Position numbers and translations under genes: made by a program. Below are positions 36,766 through 62,118 of a stretch of DNA of 62,118 bases, one piece after another. Source of the stretch: Acidimicrobiaceae bacterium (GTDB taxonomy: Bacteria > Actinomycetota > Acidimicrobiia > Acidimicrobiales > Ilumatobacteraceae); contig CANNMD010000002.1 in the NCBI GenBank assembly GCA_947505655.1, forward strand, positions 1 to 62,118, in the 5' to 3' direction. The notes under the pieces are model-generated. The model was not told the DNA's origin. It saw nothing but the letters and a program-made list of their open reading frames with translations, and did no database searches. Within the stretch, counting starts at the first letter, position 1; the number at the start of each line of letters is the position of its first letter.

Positions 36766-37263
36766 GTGCTTTCTGACCGCGAAGTGATGACATGGGAGAT
36801 GTTCGGACAGGCGTCACGCGACCTCGCGCAGATGGTGGCCGACGACGGCTACGAGCCAGACATGATCCTGTCGATTGCGCGCGGTGGCCTGCTTATTGGT
36901 GGTGCACTTGGGTATGCGCTGTCAGTAAAGAACGTGTACACGATGAACGTCGAGTTCTACACCGGCGTCGATGAGCGTCTCGAGGTTCCTCGTATTCTTC
37001 CGCCAGCCCCCGATTTTGTCGACATGTCACATGCCCGCATTCTGATTGCCGACGACGTCGCCGACACGGGCCACACGTTGCGCAGCGTCCAAGAGTTCTG
37101 CCACGGCAAGGTCGCCGAAGTGCGCAGCGCCGTGCTGTACGAAAAGGCTCACTCAGTGGTGCAGTGCGAATACGTGTGGAAGCGCACAGACCAGTGGATC
37201 AACTTCCCATGGAGCGACAAGGATCCGGTTGCCAAGCGCGACTGGGCCGTGCGCGACGCCTGA
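36766..37263 (+). CDS. Phosphoribosyltransferase, purine PRTase-like
   Basis: A 165-residue type I PRTase. The PRPP-binding loop is RILIADDVADTGHTL at about residues 91-105 and the upstream ILSIARGGLLIGG is the pyrophosphate-binding block. Size and the MILSIARGG block resemble xanthine/guanine PRTases or their archaeal relatives. GTG 36766 has a good purine-rich site (AGGGGA) 7 nt upstream; ATG 36787 is possible. Following a xanthine-dehydrogenase-type enzyme directly, a purine salvage role is a fair inference but not shown. Confidence 0.83.
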   Translation: MLSDREVMTWEMFGQASRDLAQMVADDGYEPDMILSIARGGLLIGGALGYALSVKNVYTMNVEFYTGVDERLEVPRILPPAPDFVDMSHARILIADDVADTGHTLRSVQEFCHGKVAEVRSAVLYEKAHSVVQCEYVWKRTDQWINFPWSDKDPVAKRDWAVRDA

Positions 37264-37345
37264 GCCACACCACCAAGCCTGCCACCAAGCCCACACCCAC
37301 AGCCACCGCCACGTCCACCACCACAGCCACCACCACGTCCACCAC
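37264..37345. repeat. Low-complexity CCACC/GCCAC-rich tract
   Basis: About 80 bp of imperfect repeats of CCACC, GCCACC and CCACGTCCACC between the convergent ends of the PRTase and FAD oxidoreductase genes. In other frames it would read as His-rich or Gly-rich peptide, but no gene with a start and ribosome site supports that, so it is treated as intergenic simple sequence. Confidence 0.7.
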
Positions 37346-37362
37346 TTTGCTTCATCAAACGG

Positions 37363-37409
37363 TTTGTTGAAGACAATTGGTTGAGGTTCGACCTGTTGTC
37401 TTCAACAAA
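37363..37409. repeat. 47-bp palindromic repeat, copy 1
   Basis: Perfect 14-bp arms TTTGTTGAAGACAA and TTGTCTTCAACAAA surround a centre containing a second small hairpin (AGGT-TCG-ACCT). Placed between two converging gene ends. Its reverse complement matches the element at 41151-41197 at about 41 of 47 positions, including the first 22. It may be a bidirectional terminator or a REP-like mobile palindrome. Confidence 0.85.
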
Positions 37410-37437
37410 ACGCTCAGTGCGGCTTCGGCGGCGGTTA

Positions 37438-38991
37438 TCAGTGGTTTCGCAGCACGACCATCGCGGCGTTGCGCCCGCTGGCACCCCACACGCCAGCGCC
37501 CGGAAACGTAGCTGCACCGGTGAGGTAGAGCCCGGTGACCGGCGTTTCGTAGCGGGTGAGTTCTGGGTTCTTGTTGCGGATCGCTGACAGCGGACCTCCA
37601 GCAAAGCTGGTGGCGTGGCCCGCAGGTAGATGGAACTCGCGCTCGTAGGTGGCGGGGGTCATCGCTCGCCACTCGGTGATCGAGTCGGTGAAGCCCTCGT
37701 GCACCACGGTTGAGTATTGACGCAACCAACGCTCGGGCTCATCACGGCTGGTCCAACCGCCCGTGAAGTCATACGGCGTGTACAGAGCCTCGAGGCTGAA
37801 CACATGCTTGCCAAGTGGTGCCATCGTTGGGTCGAGCAGTGACGGAACGTTGACCAAGAGCCCCGGTCGCTGCAGAATCTCGCCGCGACCCATGAGTTCG
37901 TAACCGCGGTGCATCTCAGCCAACGACGGAGCGATAGCTGCCGTGCATGCGGCTGGATCGATACCCAGCGAATCGAATACGCCGGCATCGAGATTGCGGT
38001 ACTGCGGCACCGAAGTAGCAACAGCATCGATCTTGCTTTCGTAACCTTGGCTGTGCGGCATTGCGCGCCACCTGGCGATGAGGTCGTCGGCCTGCGTTGG
38101 TGCACCCGTGAGCCACTCAACGAACGTTCGTTGCGGGTCGCACGCTGAAACCACAACCGACGATCGAATATGCGAACCATCGCTCAGGGTGACTCCGGTG
38201 ACGCCGGTGTTGTCGCACGTGATGGTGGACACCGCGCTGGCGAGACGCAGTTGCCCACCATGGGAAAGAAAGACCGACAGGATCGATTCGGGTACTGCGC
38301 CGCTGCCGCCGACGGGTCGACCCACAGTGGCGACGTGGCGAAGCGCGTAGGTGAGCGCACCCAGACCAGACCCAGCGAACTCAGGCGAGATGCCCCACAC
38401 CATTGGTCCAACAAGCAGGCCAGGGGAGCGAAGTGCCTCGGTGGAAAAAAAGCTGCGCATGATGTCGGCGGCGCTCATACGACTCCAGCGCAGCATGGTG
38501 GCGACACCGCGCATTCGGTGCTCGAGTGCCTTGCGGGCGAGTCCTGATAACGACGGGGGATCGTTGGCGGCATCGAACAGCAACTTCACAGCGGGTATCG
38601 CTGCCTTGAGGTAGCGACGGTAGCCCTCGACCTCGCCGGGATGCAGCGCTTGCAATGCATCGAGTGTGCGGTCGATGTCGTGGAAGATCGGCCACGGTGC
38701 CGAGCCGTCCCACGCAATGTTGAGTTGTGATGGCTCGAGATCGAGATAGCGCAACCCGTGCTCGGCAAGACCGAGTTCGCTCATCACCGGAGTGGTTCGA
38801 AACGTGAGGTGATCGCAGTTGCAGATGTTGACGGTGGCGTCGGCGAAGCGCTCGCTCGCAGCTGTGCCGCCCACCGCAGAGCGTGCCTCGACAAGCAACG
38901 TAGACATGCCAGCCTTGGCTAAATAGGCGGCTGTTACGAGACCGTTGTGGCCGGCGCCAACAACGATTGCATCAACATCAGTCACGGGCAC
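37438..38991 (-). CDS. FAD-dependent oxidoreductase, CrtI/PYROXD2-like
   Basis: A 517-residue protein of the phytoene dehydrogenase-like flavoprotein group. The FAD fold is DAIVVGAGHNGLVTAAYLAK followed by VEARSAVGGTAASE, and the C-terminal FAD block is LTGAATFPGAGVWGASGRNA. The middle region fits PYROXD2-type oxidases rather than carotenoid desaturases, which usually sit with crtB (absent here). GTG 38991 is used; GTG 38985 is possible. Divergent from the creatininase gene with 34 bp between, suggesting shared regulation. Confidence 0.87.
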   Translation of the reverse strand: MPVTDVDAIVVGAGHNGLVTAAYLAKAGMSTLLVEARSAVGGTAASERFADATVNICNCDHLTFRTTPVMSELGLAEHGLRYLDLEPSQLNIAWDGSAPWPIFHDIDRTLDALQALHPGEVEGYRRYLKAAIPAVKLLFDAANDPPSLSGLARKALEHRMRGVATMLRWSRMSAADIMRSFFSTEALRSPGLLVGPMVWGISPEFAGSGLGALTYALRHVATVGRPVGGSGAVPESILSVFLSHGGQLRLASAVSTITCDNTGVTGVTLSDGSHIRSSVVVSACDPQRTFVEWLTGAPTQADDLIARWRAMPHSQGYESKIDAVATSVPQYRNLDAGVFDSLGIDPAACTAAIAPSLAEMHRGYELMGRGEILQRPGLLVNVPSLLDPTMAPLGKHVFSLEALYTPYDFTGGWTSRDEPERWLRQYSTVVHEGFTDSITEWRAMTPATYEREFHLPAGHATSFAGGPLSAIRNKNPELTRYETPVTGLYLTGAATFPGAGVWGASGRNAAMVVLRNH

Positions 38992-39013
38992 ACATCCATT
39001 CTTGCTGCACGGC

Positions 39014-39019
39014 TAGCGT
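39014..39019 (+). promoter_or_regulatory. Candidate -10 element TAGCGT (leaderless)
   Basis: TAGCGT ends 6 nt before the GTG of the creatininase-family gene, a spacing that would put transcription start on the start codon. Lies in the 34-bp divergent gap with the FAD oxidoreductase. Confidence 0.45.
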
Positions 39020-39025
39020 AAGCAC

Positions 39026-39817
39026 GTGACTCAGCCGCCGAACATTCGAATCCGTCATCTCGCAGACCTCAGCGGCCCCGATATTGAGCGACGCGTTACC
39101 GAGAATTCGATCTTGGTGCAACCGCTTGGCGCCGTTGAGCAACATGGTCCGCACCTTCCGCTGAACACCGATCTCATCGTGGCCAACGCAGTGGCCGAGG
39201 CTGCTGTATCGCGTATCGGCGAAGAGCTCGACGTGTGGGTGTTGCCTGCGTTGGCGTACACCAAGTCAAACGAGCACGCTTGGTCCCCTGGAACCATCTG
39301 GTTGTCGGCCACCACGTTGTTGGCAGTGCTCGACGACATCGGACGATGCATTGCCAAGACACCCGCAAAGCGACTCGTGTTCCTCAACGGCCACGGCGGC
39401 AACAGCAGTTTGCTCAGCGCCGCCAACCGCGAGCTTCGCCTGAAGTATGGCTTGATGACATTCCTTGCTCACCCGGGCATGCCCGCCGACCAGGGCGGAA
39501 CCTCGGCCGAAGGCGAGCACGGAATGGGTGTTCATGGTGGCACCGACGAGACCAGCATCATGCTGCACCTCGCCCCGCACCTATGCACCATGGCAAAGGC
39601 CGAGCGTCGCATCCCTGAGGCACTTGCGAAGAACTCATATGTGAAGTTCGGAGGCAAGGTGAGCTTTGGTTGGCTCTCGAACGATTTCTTCGAAGATGGA
39701 TACATCGGCGACCCCACCACTGCCACTGCCGAGCGCGGCAAAGAATTGTTCGATGGTTCGGTCACAGCGTTCTGCGAAGCGCTGCGTGAAATCAGCACCT
39801 TCAACTTTGGTAAGTGA
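39026..39817 (+). CDS. Creatininase-family amidohydrolase
   Basis: A 263-residue metal-dependent cyclic-amide hydrolase family protein. Metal and active-site blocks: LGAVEQHGPHLPLNTD (E38, H40, D49), NGHGGNSSLL and GEHGMGVHGGTDETS. Family members include creatininase, 3-dehydro-scyllo-inosose hydrolase, FAPy deformylase and the mycofactocin peptidase MftE; none can be singled out here and no mycofactocin genes are present. It overlaps the following M20 gene, so the two likely act in sequence, for example ring opening followed by carbamoyl or amide hydrolysis. Confidence 0.88.
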   Translation: MTQPPNIRIRHLADLSGPDIERRVTENSILVQPLGAVEQHGPHLPLNTDLIVANAVAEAAVSRIGEELDVWVLPALAYTKSNEHAWSPGTIWLSATTLLAVLDDIGRCIAKTPAKRLVFLNGHGGNSSLLSAANRELRLKYGLMTFLAHPGMPADQGGTSAEGEHGMGVHGGTDETSIMLHLAPHLCTMAKAERRIPEALAKNSYVKFGGKVSFGWLSNDFFEDGYIGDPTTATAERGKELFDGSVTAFCEALREISTFNFGK

Positions 39818-39819
39818 CG

Positions 39820-41091
39820 ATGAGCCCATCGCACTCCGTGTCTGATCTTTGTATCGACAACGCGCGCCTGCTGCAGCGGCTAGCCGATCTCGGCGAAATC
39901 GGCGCGGTGCATGGGCCTAACGGTGAGCGCGGATGCGCGCGACTTGCGTTGACTGACGAAGATCGTCGCGGCCGTGACTTGGTGGTGTCGTGGATGCGAG
40001 ATCTTGGTCTCAGCGTTGCGATAGACGCCATCGGAAATGTCGTCGCCACTCACGCTGGCACCGACCCAGCAGCAGCCCCAATCATGATGGGTTCACACAT
40101 CGACACCGTTCGTACCGGTGGTCGATTCGACGGAAACCTCGGTGTGCTTGGCGGACTCGAAGTCATCGAGACGCTGCAGCGGTACGGGGTACGCACTCGA
40201 CATCCGATTCAAGTTGCGTTCTTCACCGACGAAGAGGGCGCCCGGTTTGCGCCCGACATGTTGGGGAGCATTGTCTACGTCGGCGGCATGTCGGTGGAAG
40301 ACGCCCTCGACGCTCGAGCCGCCGACGACAATGCTCGACTCGGCGACGAGCTGGCCCGCATCGGCTATGCGGGTCCCACTCCGTGTCCCACGGCTGACAT
40401 CCCTCACGCGTATGTTGAGCTACATATCGAGCAAGGTCCCGTGCTCGAAGAGCAAGGCGTCACGATCGGTGTAGTCACCGGGGTGCAGGGCATCTCATGG
40501 ACCGAACTCGTGATCACCGGCCGCTCGGCGCATGCGGGCACCACACCAATGCGGCTTCGCAAGGATCCGCTCGTTCCTGCTGCAGCCATCGCGGTCGAGG
40601 CGCGTCGCTTGGCGGCAGCGATGGGCGGTGCGCAGGTGGCCACCATCGGACGTTTCGATGTCTTCCCCGATCTGGTCAACGTCATCGCGCAAAGCGTCAC
40701 CATCACACTCGATGTGCGCAACACCGACGAAACGCTGCTGCGTAACGCCGAGGCGCACATGATGGAGTTCGCACAGGCAGCCGCCAACGCCGAGGGTTGC
40801 ACCCTGCACACACGTTCGCTCGCGCGTTTCGAACCCGTTGCCTTCGCCGACTCAATGATCGACAGTGTCGAGCGAATTGCGCAGGGCCAGGGCCACAGCA
40901 CATTGCGGCTGCCCTCGGGTGCTGGTCACGATGCACAGATGCTGGCCCGGGTATGTCCAACCTCAATGATCTTCGTGCCATCGGTTGATGGGCTTTCGCA
41001 CAACATCGCCGAGTTCACAGAGGCGGCCGACATCGCTGCCGGAGCCAACGTGCTGCTGCACATGGTGCTCGAACTCGCCGAAGTCGTCTAG
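39820..41091 (+). CDS. M20-family N-carbamoyl-L-amino-acid hydrolase / allantoate amidohydrolase-like
   Basis: About 423 residues. The ATG at 39820 is used; GTG 39814, overlapping the upstream stop as GTGA, is equally possible. Metal blocks MGSHIDTVRTGGRFDGNLGV, FTDEEGARFAPDMLGS and ELHIEQGPVLEEQGV are those of the HyuC/AllC/beta-ureidopropionase branch, and AGTTPMRLRKDP marks the dimerisation region. Such enzymes release CO2 and ammonia from N-carbamoyl or ureido compounds. With the creatininase-family partner this looks like a two-step amide-hydrolysis unit. Confidence 0.9.
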   Translation: MSPSHSVSDLCIDNARLLQRLADLGEIGAVHGPNGERGCARLALTDEDRRGRDLVVSWMRDLGLSVAIDAIGNVVATHAGTDPAAAPIMMGSHIDTVRTGGRFDGNLGVLGGLEVIETLQRYGVRTRHPIQVAFFTDEEGARFAPDMLGSIVYVGGMSVEDALDARAADDNARLGDELARIGYAGPTPCPTADIPHAYVELHIEQGPVLEEQGVTIGVVTGVQGISWTELVITGRSAHAGTTPMRLRKDPLVPAAAIAVEARRLAAAMGGAQVATIGRFDVFPDLVNVIAQSVTITLDVRNTDETLLRNAEAHMMEFAQAAANAEGCTLHTRSLARFEPVAFADSMIDSVERIAQGQGHSTLRLPSGAGHDAQMLARVCPTSMIFVPSVDGLSHNIAEFTEAADIAAGANVLLHMVLELAEVV

Positions 41092-41120
41092 CCGACCACT
41101 CGTCGCACCCCGGCGTCCCC

Positions 41121-41147
41121 GTCAATCCTGTCGATCCTGTCGATCCT
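41121..41147. repeat. 9-bp tandem repeat, three units
   Basis: Three consecutive GTC(A/G)ATCCT units immediately before palindrome copy 2, in the gap between convergent gene ends. Confidence 0.75.
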
Positions 41148-41150
41148 GAT

Positions 41151-41197
41151 TTTGTTGAAGACAACAGGTCGAGGGTCGACCAAAGGTCTTCAACAAA
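41151..41197. repeat. 47-bp palindromic repeat, copy 2
   Basis: Perfect 12-bp outer arms TTTGTTGAAGAC and GTCTTCAACAAA, with an inner hairpin GGTCGA-GGG-TCGACC. Same length as copy 1 and inverted relative to it. A further half-arm (TTTGTTGAAG) follows at 41201-41210 within a small CCCTT/AAGGG hairpin, as if part of another copy. Confidence 0.85.
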
Positions 41198-41210
41198 CCC
41201 TTTGTTGAAG

Positions 41211-41262
41211 GGAAGTGGTGAGTGGGAAGGGAAGTGGTGAGTGGGGAGTGGTGAGTGGGAAG
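41211..41262. repeat. Purine-rich tandem repeat (GGAAGTGGTGAGTGG units)
   Basis: Two 19-bp units (GGAAGTGGTGAGTGGGAAG, and the same with GGGGAG at the end) followed by a shortened third unit. Strongly G-rich on the plus strand. No coding sense seen. Confidence 0.75.
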
Positions 41263-41280
41263 TGGTGCGTTCGAAAACGA

Positions 41281-41312
41281 CGAAGGGCGCCGGCCGAAGC
41301 CGACGCCCTTCG
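41281..41312 (-). terminator. Rho-independent-type terminator of the NMT1-like importer operon
   Basis: Long GC-rich hairpin: CGAAGGGCG, an inner CGGC/GCCG stem, and CGCCCTTCG with one mismatch, loop CGAA. On the minus strand it is followed by TCGTTTTCG, a partial T tract, and sits 20 bp past the stop of the binding-protein gene. Confidence 0.75.
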
Positions 41313-41331: not shown

Positions 41332-42543
41332 TTAGAGGTGAATGCTCGGATCGATGAACTCGTTCGTCACGATGTCTGCAGCCTTGAGGCCAGCCTTTGG
41401 TGGGCTGTCCTGTTCGGTGTAGACAGGGATTGCCTTAGCGATGAGGTCGTCAACACGGGCGGTGTCGAACGAACCCATGACGCCATCGGTGCCGTTAGCA
41501 ACGAGGCCATCCTTCTTGATGGTCTCTACTGCGTACGCAGCGGTGCCTTCGCTGTAGACCCAGCCGCTGCCTGCTTCGCCAAACTTCTTGACGGCGTCGA
41601 GCAACACGGCGTTGCCGTTGGTTGGATCGGTGATGTAGTCAACAGCTGACTGCTGGATGATTGGAACGAGCTTCTTGAAGCAATCGGCGTACTTGGTGAT
41701 GTTCTCAGGCAAGGTGGCGATTGATTCGGCGTAGTTCTTCCAGCCGACATCGTTGATGTACTCGTACTTGACTGGCTTGAGCCAATCCTTGATTTCCTTC
41801 TCGTACGCGTATGGCTCGGCCGAGCCGAAGCCCTGCTGGGCTGCTTTGCCTTCGTCAGCAACGAAGAGGCTTGGGTCGCCCTGGTACGAACCGTCGACCT
41901 GGTCCTTCGACAAGATGCCGGTTGAGGTCAAGAAGTCCATGTACGCCGCGCCGCCGAAGTAGCGAACGTTGATCTTCTGGGTGCCGATGTCCTTGATGCC
42001 GGTGACATCTGGGTACGTGGCTGGATCCCACATGATCATCTGTGGGTTCTTCTCGTAGCCCGACTCGATGGCAACGGTTGGGAACTTCTCAGAGTTCTGA
42101 ATGGCCTCGTCGGTGTACACGAAGCCGAGCAAGATCGACTTGTCTGCGTACATCAACTGGGTGTCGCTCTGGAAGCCAGCAGCGCCGCCGCCCGAGTTCA
42201 CGGTGAGCTTCACGCCGGTGTCGACGTCGCCAGCCATGAGTGGTCCGGTGACCTTGTAGGCAGAGGCGTCAGACACGAAGCCTTCGCCGATCATGTTGTA
42301 CAAGAAACCGTGCTCGGCCTCTGGCCACCAGTCGGTCTGAACCTTGATTTCGTCTGGGCAGATGCCAGCAAGGCTGACGTCGGCTGCTGGTGCAGCTGAG
42401 TCGCTCGTGACTGTTGCTGTGTCGACCGTGGAACCATCAGCAGGTGTGGTGGTAACGGTCTTGGTGTCGCTACCGCAGGCGGTGAGGGCGAGGCCTCCCG
42501 CTACGGCGAGTGCAAGCAGCGAACTGCTGAAACGGTGTTGCAT
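41332..42543 (-). CDS. ABC transporter substrate-binding lipoprotein, NMT1/SsuA-like
   Basis: A 403-residue solute-binding protein of the NMT1/ThiY/SsuA superfamily. The start ATG has an AGGAG site 9 nt upstream. Signal peptide with lipobox LALTAC, then a Thr/Ser-rich linker and the mature domain beginning near ICPDEIKVQTDWWPEAEHGF. WWPEAEHG is reminiscent of pyrimidine- or riboflavin-precursor binding proteins, which favours a heterocyclic ligand, but the ligand is unproven. A longer in-frame ORF upstream is antisense shadow of the permease. Terminated by the hairpin at 41281. Confidence 0.9.
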   Translation of the reverse strand: MQHRFSSSLLALAVAGGLALTACGSDTKTVTTTPADGSTVDTATVTSDSAAPAADVSLAGICPDEIKVQTDWWPEAEHGFLYNMIGEGFVSDASAYKVTGPLMAGDVDTGVKLTVNSGGGAAGFQSDTQLMYADKSILLGFVYTDEAIQNSEKFPTVAIESGYEKNPQMIMWDPATYPDVTGIKDIGTQKINVRYFGGAAYMDFLTSTGILSKDQVDGSYQGDPSLFVADEGKAAQQGFGSAEPYAYEKEIKDWLKPVKYEYINDVGWKNYAESIATLPENITKYADCFKKLVPIIQQSAVDYITDPTNGNAVLLDAVKKFGEAGSGWVYSEGTAAYAVETIKKDGLVANGTDGVMGSFDTARVDDLIAKAIPVYTEQDSPPKAGLKAADIVTNEFIDPSIHL

Positions 42544-53706: not shown

Positions 53707-53753
53707 GCATGGGCGCGATTTGGGACAGCAGTTGTCCCAAATCGCGCCCATGC
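53707..53753. repeat. Perfect 21-bp inverted repeat with 5-nt loop
   Basis: Arms GCATGGGCGCGATTTGGGACA and its exact complement, with loop GCAGT, 31 bp after the SirB1-like stop. No T tract on either side, so it is not a textbook Rho-independent terminator, though it may act as one. Also similar in layout (long perfect arms, 5-nt loop) to the palindrome pair near the window end, but different in sequence. Nothing else is seen in the 53676-53886 gap. Confidence 0.9.
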
Positions 53754-55092: not shown

Positions 55093-55158
55093 GTGTGAGC
55101 TGCGACGCGCTCGGCGCAAGACGGCAGGCTCATTCAGCCAATCGCCTCTAGCCATTTG

Positions 55159-60700: not shown

Positions 60701-60736
60701 TTCTCCGAGAGTTTGCTTCCGGGGAGCTACCCGCCG

Positions 60737-60775
60737 TAAAGCATCAGCGCACGGTTGGCGTGCGGTGGTGCTTTA
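60737..60775. repeat. 17-bp-arm palindrome, copy A
   Basis: TAAAGCATCAGCGCACG, loop GTTGG, then CGTGCGGTGGTGCTTTA, with two arm mismatches. Its left arm is identical to copy B at 61920-61958; the two flank the GST-like gene. Confidence 0.87.
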
Positions 60776-60833
60776 TGAAGCAAGTGTTCGGCCAACGCTC
60801 GGCGCCGGTGCGCCATGGTCACGGGCTCACACA

Positions 60834-61904: not shown

Positions 61905-61919
61905 AGTTCGCGTGCTGCG

Positions 61920-61958
61920 TAAAGCATCAGCGCACGGTCAACGTGCGCTGATGCTTTA
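61920..61958. repeat. 17-bp-arm palindrome, copy B
   Basis: Perfect arms TAAAGCATCAGCGCACG and CGTGCGCTGATGCTTTA with loop GTCAA, 15 bp after the GST-like stop. No T tract follows, but it may still end transcription. Confidence 0.88.
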
Positions 61959-62118
61959 TGGGGACGACGAGCGTGGCCACCAGCACCACGAATCGGCTGG
62001 GCTGACGCTTGCCGCGAAGGCGGGCTCGCCACGGTTTCCATGCCCACTGCCATCCGTACCAGGTGTGATACCGGCGCCAGCGAAGGCCGAGTTGCGTAGA
62101 AAGCTCGCGCAGCATGGC
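61927..62118 (-). CDS. Hypothetical protein, partial or spurious
   Basis: An Arg- and Trp-rich frame on the minus strand, with a possible ATG at 62115 and open to the window edge (RRYHTWYGWQWAWKPWRARL), then a hydrophobic FVVLVATLVVP. Its last codons run into palindrome copy B. It could be the 3' end of a longer membrane protein extending outside the window, or non-coding. No family recognised. Confidence 0.35.
   Translation of the reverse strand, partial: AMLRELSTQLGLRWRRYHTWYGWQWAWKPWRARLRGKRQPSRFVVLVATLVVPIKHQRTLTVR

Follow-up and report, generated by a model that had tools for sequence, protein, structure and literature searches.

The window, meaning the whole stretch of 62,118 nucleotides that was analysed, belongs to a draft genome (G000; 2.76 Mb, 282 contigs, 85% complete). 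Two 47-bp palindromes lie in it, the first flanked by the genes 36766-37263 (+) and 37438-38991 (-), the second by the genes 39814- or 39838-41091 (+) and 41332-42543 (-). The preliminary description had reported these palindromes at 37363-37409 and 41151-41197, both between convergent gene ends, and its positions and gene context agree with ours. Its alignment of element 1 with the reverse complement of element 2 was likewise reproduced (41 of 47 positions identical), with the correction that the unbroken run of 22 identical positions, which it had put at the first 22, corresponds to the final 22 positions of element 1 as read on the + strand. The inverted match on which it based an opposite orientation is real, but has little meaning since the element is palindromic and the two copies agree at 83% in direct orientation. 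The associated features are listed in Table 1. The only match in an Rfam scan of the window was a tRNA.

Table 1. Palindromic elements of the window and the features that accompany them
Feature	Position	Strand	Observation
Palindromic element 1	37362..37410 (47-bp core 37363-37409)	.	23-3-23 form: two half-sites, 3-bp centre; also present at this locus in G002 and G007
Third, degenerate half-site (TTTGATGAAGCAAAGTGGT), 3 bp off element 1	37341..37359	-	score 16/18
C-rich, G-poor 3' untranslated stretch before element 1	37264..37340	+	absent in sister G001, where the gene gap is ~10 bp
Palindromic element 2	41150..41198 (47-bp core 41151-41197)	.	site also occupied in G002
Third half-site (TTTGTTGAAGGGAAGTGGT), 3 bp off element 2	41201..41219	+	score 17/18; the "half-arm" of the preliminary description
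G-rich tandem repeats (GGGAAGTGGTGAGTGG units) beside element 2	41210..41276	+	from the repeat analysis
Separate terminator-like hairpin with T-rich tail, downstream of the gene at 41332	41281..41312	-	hairpin conserved in G001, without element 2

Both window elements were confirmed as members of a dispersed 47-bp family. A pattern search of the 2.76 Mb of G000 returned 18 exact and 3 near copies (21 within 2 mismatches), all of the same length, and no match for a reversed control pattern. The genome thus holds far more than the two copies of the window, and the earlier idea of a defined element is borne out by this fixed length and by the dispersal of the copies. The 11-bp arm TTGTTGAAGAC occurs 42 times in G000 (1 for its control); 39 of these occurrences are in whole elements, 1 is in an element truncated at a contig end, and 2 are elsewhere. 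A DNA uptake sequence was ruled out on this ground, single arms outside whole or contig-cut elements amounting to 2 of 42. The unit is bounded by TTTG and CAAA, and with the outer G-C pair it becomes a 49-bp unit of 23 + 3 + 23. A third, weaker half-site (TTTGKTGRAGCGAANTGGT) accompanies 51 of 71 copies, so that the half-arm seen at 41201 is a recurrent feature of the family; its spacing is exactly 3 bp in 51 of the 52 third sites scored (maximum score 18, with random sites reaching 12 in 30 of 4000). Each arm end also reads GAAGAC, an inward-pointing BbsI-type recognition sequence (37369-37374 and the mirror positions), probably by coincidence.

A covariance model built from the 21 copies of G000 was searched against 81 genomes, true copies scoring at least 55 bits and everything else at most 31 bits. 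It retrieved 26 copies in G002 and 24 in G007, which belong to the same genus as G000; the three are related freshwater actinobacteria, and the genomes are drafts, 85-96% complete. No decayed family copy was found in these three genomes, and the decayed-looking arm that the preliminary description had pointed to near 55155 has neither a partner arm nor a covariance-model match. Among 84,980 species, the exact arms were found in no records besides the named ones of G002 (CAMASN01) and G007 (JAPKZR01), and the TTTG..GGT..ACC..CAAA frame was found in 0 of 297 other genomes of the wider order. With a frame-only pattern and a second model, the same 47-bp frame with other arms was seen in G001 (about 17 copies, arms TTTGYCTGAG) and in G008 (about 5 copies). 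As the second model also detects copies of the G000 clade (E 3e-8), the G001/G008 and G000 families are probably homologous. In one gap, G004 carries a palindrome with different arms where G000, G002 and G007 carry theirs. A phage or viral origin was considered and rejected, viral contigs containing no exact copy of the element, and viral contigs and phages no homolog of the nuclease described below. Another 47-bp palindrome (TTCTGGAGGCAATAGGTCGC..GCGACCTATTGCCTCCAGAA), with a core like that of the G000 family, is present at two sites (L039 and L046) of G049, a genome of the same order.

Every one of the 21 G000 sites has its counterpart in G002, and 16 are common to G000, G002 and G007. Movement has thus not been recent, and the conservation of positions in three species counts against current mobility. 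The sister species G001, G003, G004 and G008 lack the element at one or both loci of the window. At the locus of element 1, the same two genes converge in G001 with a gap of ~10 bp and no element, and the gaps of G003, G004 and G008 are short and lack it. At the locus of element 2, the neighbour gene and the equivalent of the 41281-41312 hairpin are both present in G001 without the element, and G003 and G004 have a different gene downstream. On this comparison of sequences the elements are clade-specific insertions, mostly between convergent genes in G000. The DNA gained exceeds 47 bp: it takes in C-rich and G-rich flanks in which tandem repeats abound, with arrays in 22 of 34 flanks of elements versus 4 of 68 control gaps. 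The insertions showed no target-site duplication, their variable flanks preventing duplications from being read. The "REP-like mobile palindrome" of the preliminary description is thus upheld as to fixed length, dispersed extragenic copies (~21-26 per genome) and absence from the matching sister-species sites.

Between orthologous copies, change is concentrated in the middle of the element: 0.4% in the outer arms, 0% in GGT, 8% in the linkers, 8% in the inner stem and 13% in the centre, the 60-bp flanks having 77% identity with gaps counted. No compensatory changes were found within the clade, which indicates that sequence rather than pairing has been kept. At one orthologous site (L018:2683, L057:2042, L078:7285) G000 and G007 read GGG in the 3-bp centre where G002 reads CCC, with the outer asymmetry unchanged, as if the inner part had been flipped.

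In G000, two copies 1020 bp apart (L030:3598 and 4618) bracket a gene, and orthologous pairs bracket the same gene (305-319 codons) in G002, G007 and G001, those of G001 being of the same length with TTTGYCTGAG arms. The upstream palindrome sits 45-75 bp from the gene, and in the G000 clade the last codons of the gene sit within the second palindrome. The encoded protein has an AbiEi-type winged-helix N-terminal region (residues 5-180, E 1e-16 to 1e-20) and a C-terminal DUF559 (Vsr/EDxHD-like) region at about 237-301, the latter over the cut-off in G000 and G001 with modest scores of 21-24 bits. In G000, G002 and G007 alike the element flanks, on both sides, one gene that joins an AbiEi-type domain to a DUF559 nuclease. 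The nuclease-core residues D238, E249 and H256 are invariant in 6 of 6 homologs; PDB matches were weak (3hrl, "endonuclease-like", E 0.003; 3r3p, "mobile intron protein", E 0.18), and an AlphaFold model, computed from two near-identical sequences of the nuclease, had a pLDDT of 40 and was too poor for use. No paper joining DUF559 with AbiEi was found in the literature that was searched.

Homologs beyond these four genomes are also accompanied by palindromes. The homolog of G020, which we take to be probably Ilumatobacter coccineus, has 52% identity to the G002 protein, a DUF559 match just under the cut-off, and two palindromes of a same-length family (arms TTTGYGTGACCGA) on each side. That of G004 has one 47-bp palindrome (arms TCTGTGTCAAGACA) 56 bp upstream, the contig ending on the other side. 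The genes adjoining the nuclease gene, read as groEL and a solute-binding protein, are alike in G000 and G001 (groEL next door) and different in G004 and G020, so that the unit either moved whole or was inherited through rearrangement. Of the more distant homologs, a G020 paralog (3.423 Mb; 25% identical), whose sole match over the cut-off is AbiEi_4, has matching palindromes of its own on both sides, as does a Tsukamurella homolog (NZ_LR134454, annotated DUF559). The Tsukamurella palindrome is also dispersed in intergenic DNA, at 3 places in the NZ_LR134454 record and at 3 + 1 in two other records of the strain, with at least one copy between convergent genes.

Among the 1393 genes predicted in the 1.6 Mb of G020 that were scanned, 4 were bracketed by palindromes with a common 8-bp arm, and both AbiEi-DUF559 homologs detected in the scanned sequence are among them. 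Were bracketing unrelated to the type of gene, both would fall among the 4 with a chance of 6 in 969,528, for a scan that was not fully blind, its first two 400-kb blocks having been examined beforehand. The other two genes encode ordinary-looking enzymes and are bracketed by other palindrome families, so that bracketing is not exclusive to nucleases. These families (CCGGACGGTTTGTCTC... and CGCTTGTTTCCCTTGG...) bracket the enzyme genes at 480955-481845 and 4500654-4501259 of the G020 record (L241-L280).

REP sequences are described as palindromes of 20-40 bp with a GTAG or CGTC tag, associated with TnpA-REP/RAYT, the CGTC families having no known transposase (PMC3733652, PMC8266576). The present family resembles REPs and REPtrons in consisting of short dispersed extragenic palindromes, often between convergent or tandem genes, with arms specific to a species group, and in including a nuclease gene with copies in its immediate proximity. 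The system is REPtron-like, yet departs from REPs in tag, length and Y1 transposase: the unit is 47 bp long, the GTAG/CGTC tag is absent, no Y1 (HUH) transposase was found in six genomes, and the bracketed gene is that of the AbiEi-DUF559 protein. A second resemblance is to the operator of the AbiEi antitoxin, which is reported to bind a pair of 23-bp inverted repeats with 3 bp between them (PMC7319586). The 23-3-23 geometry, the AbiEi-type DNA-binding domain and the copy upstream of the gene are shared with it, and that copy could be a plain autoregulatory operator. Here, however, copies are also found downstream of the gene and dispersed over the genome, the C-terminal domain is a nuclease, and, unlike in type IV AbiE systems, no AbiEii (DUF1814) toxin gene was noticed among the neighbours as read. 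The DUF559 region and the PDB matches also suggest the fold of EDxHD (Vsr-like) homing endonucleases of the I-Bth0305I type, whose homing would explain a copying of sites, although the sites are here extragenic palindromes and no intron or intein is involved.

Our preferred reading, to which we assign a probability of about 0.6, is that the palindromes serve as REP-like sites for a cognate AbiEi-nuclease, which would have dispersed and homogenised them, and that they perhaps also end transcripts. Each site would consist of two inverted 23-bp half-sites around 3 bp, usually with the weaker third half-site 3 bp outside; the nuclease gene would lie between two such sites in the manner of a REPtron, with solo sites across intergenic DNA. 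The protein would bind the palindrome arms, as the reported AbiEi operator geometry supports without proving, and its nuclease domain would nick or cut at or near them. Repair from another copy would keep the arms identical within a genome and different between species, would occasionally put a copy into a new gap and, when slipped, would leave tandem repeats beside the sites. Gaps between convergent genes, in which a copy does the least damage, would be where most copies persist, and there the strong hairpin and the C-rich flanks may have a further part in ending or protecting transcripts. The sequences themselves establish the family, the history of its insertions, its geometry and its association with the nuclease gene. 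Binding, cleavage and mobilisation by the protein are inferred; the cutting, the repair-driven homogenisation and the copying from the uniform arms within a genome, the different arms between species, the flanking tandem repeats and the clade-specific insertions. Taken together, the sequence comparisons suggest a REP-like repeat system with an enzyme not previously linked to such repeats. So far the HUH/Y1 RAYTs are the one enzyme family connected with REP-type palindromes, and we know of no enzyme for many palindrome families, CGTC REPs included. If the reading holds, a second, unrelated nuclease type would be tied to dispersed palindromes. It would supply the orphan families with a mechanism, assign a role to the functionally uncharacterised AbiEi-DUF559 proteins and open the way to a direct test of repeat spread. 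More tentatively, and at somewhat less than even odds, Actinomycetota may harbour an undescribed general class of REP-like selfish palindromes with lineage-specific arms, each spread and homogenised by its cognate AbiEi-EDxHD nuclease by way of break repair resembling homing.

The preliminary description had also proposed a bidirectional terminator, and the strongest competing explanation, which we nevertheless hold to be unlikely, is that the elements are bidirectional terminators or mRNA 3'-end hairpins that fold in either convergent transcript, stall the polymerase after a C-rich Rho-loading stretch and protect the 3' end, the arms having spread by copying. Like intrinsic terminators, the hairpins lie between convergent gene ends: of the 21 copies of G000, 15 are convergent, 5 tandem and 1 divergent, with about 1/6 of adjacent gene pairs in the window being convergent. 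Both strands fold far better than shuffles at both loci (z -3.2 to -5.3), and the 3' flanks of the elements are C-rich and G-poor (C 0.48 and G 0.19 versus 0.31 and 0.28 in controls; C more than 2x G in 75 of 97 flanks versus 1 of 73 controls), flanks facing gene starts being less so. Such an approach on both sides would suit Rho-dependent 3' ends. A U-tract is nevertheless absent on either strand (the whole palindrome is followed by AAAACG and AAACCC at elements 1 and 2), and weak inner-hairpin patterns match at about the shuffle rate. Arm sequence is conserved instead of pairing, only 4 of the 17 copies of G001 are convergent (10 tandem, 3 divergent), the gene at element 2 is already served by the separate hairpin, which G001 has alone, and the bracketing of the nuclease gene in several lineages is left unexplained. 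Termination is plausible as a secondary role of the elements, not as the defining one.

Somewhat less probable again is that the copies are chromosomal binding sites of the AbiEi-nuclease for a host function (a regulon, nucleoid organisation or self-marking in defence), the nuclease having no role in mobility. The strong sequence constraint without compensatory change, the positions conserved in three species and the operator-like geometry would all fit such sites, whereas their location mostly at gene 3' ends instead of promoters, the empty loci of sister species, the variation of the arms by species and the few dispersed copies in the G020 sample would not. A classical REP or MITE moved by a Y1 (RAYT) or DDE transposase, since lost or missing from the assemblies, appears very improbable. 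The elements are palindromic, dispersed and extragenic, and incomplete drafts leave room for a missing gene, but single arms are almost confined to elements, the GTAG or CGTC tag is absent, and a search for Y1_Tnp (PF01797, RAYT) gave no match in G000, G001, G002, G007, G008 and G049 with positive controls detected. The RAYT that the preliminary description had suggested looking for was therefore not found in these six genomes, and the cognate protein appears to be the AbiEi-DUF559 nuclease.

Two further palindromic arrangements were observed in the window. Palindromes of a second family (AAAGCATCAGCGCACG-N5-CGTGCGCTGATGCTTT), at 60734-60782 and 61913-61961, bracket a glutathione S-transferase-like gene of 352 codons beside a tRNA. 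At 53707-53753, between two genes, lies an inverted repeat (GCATGGGCGCGATTTGGGACA) with perfectly matching 21-bp arms and a loop of 5 bp, 47 bp in all.
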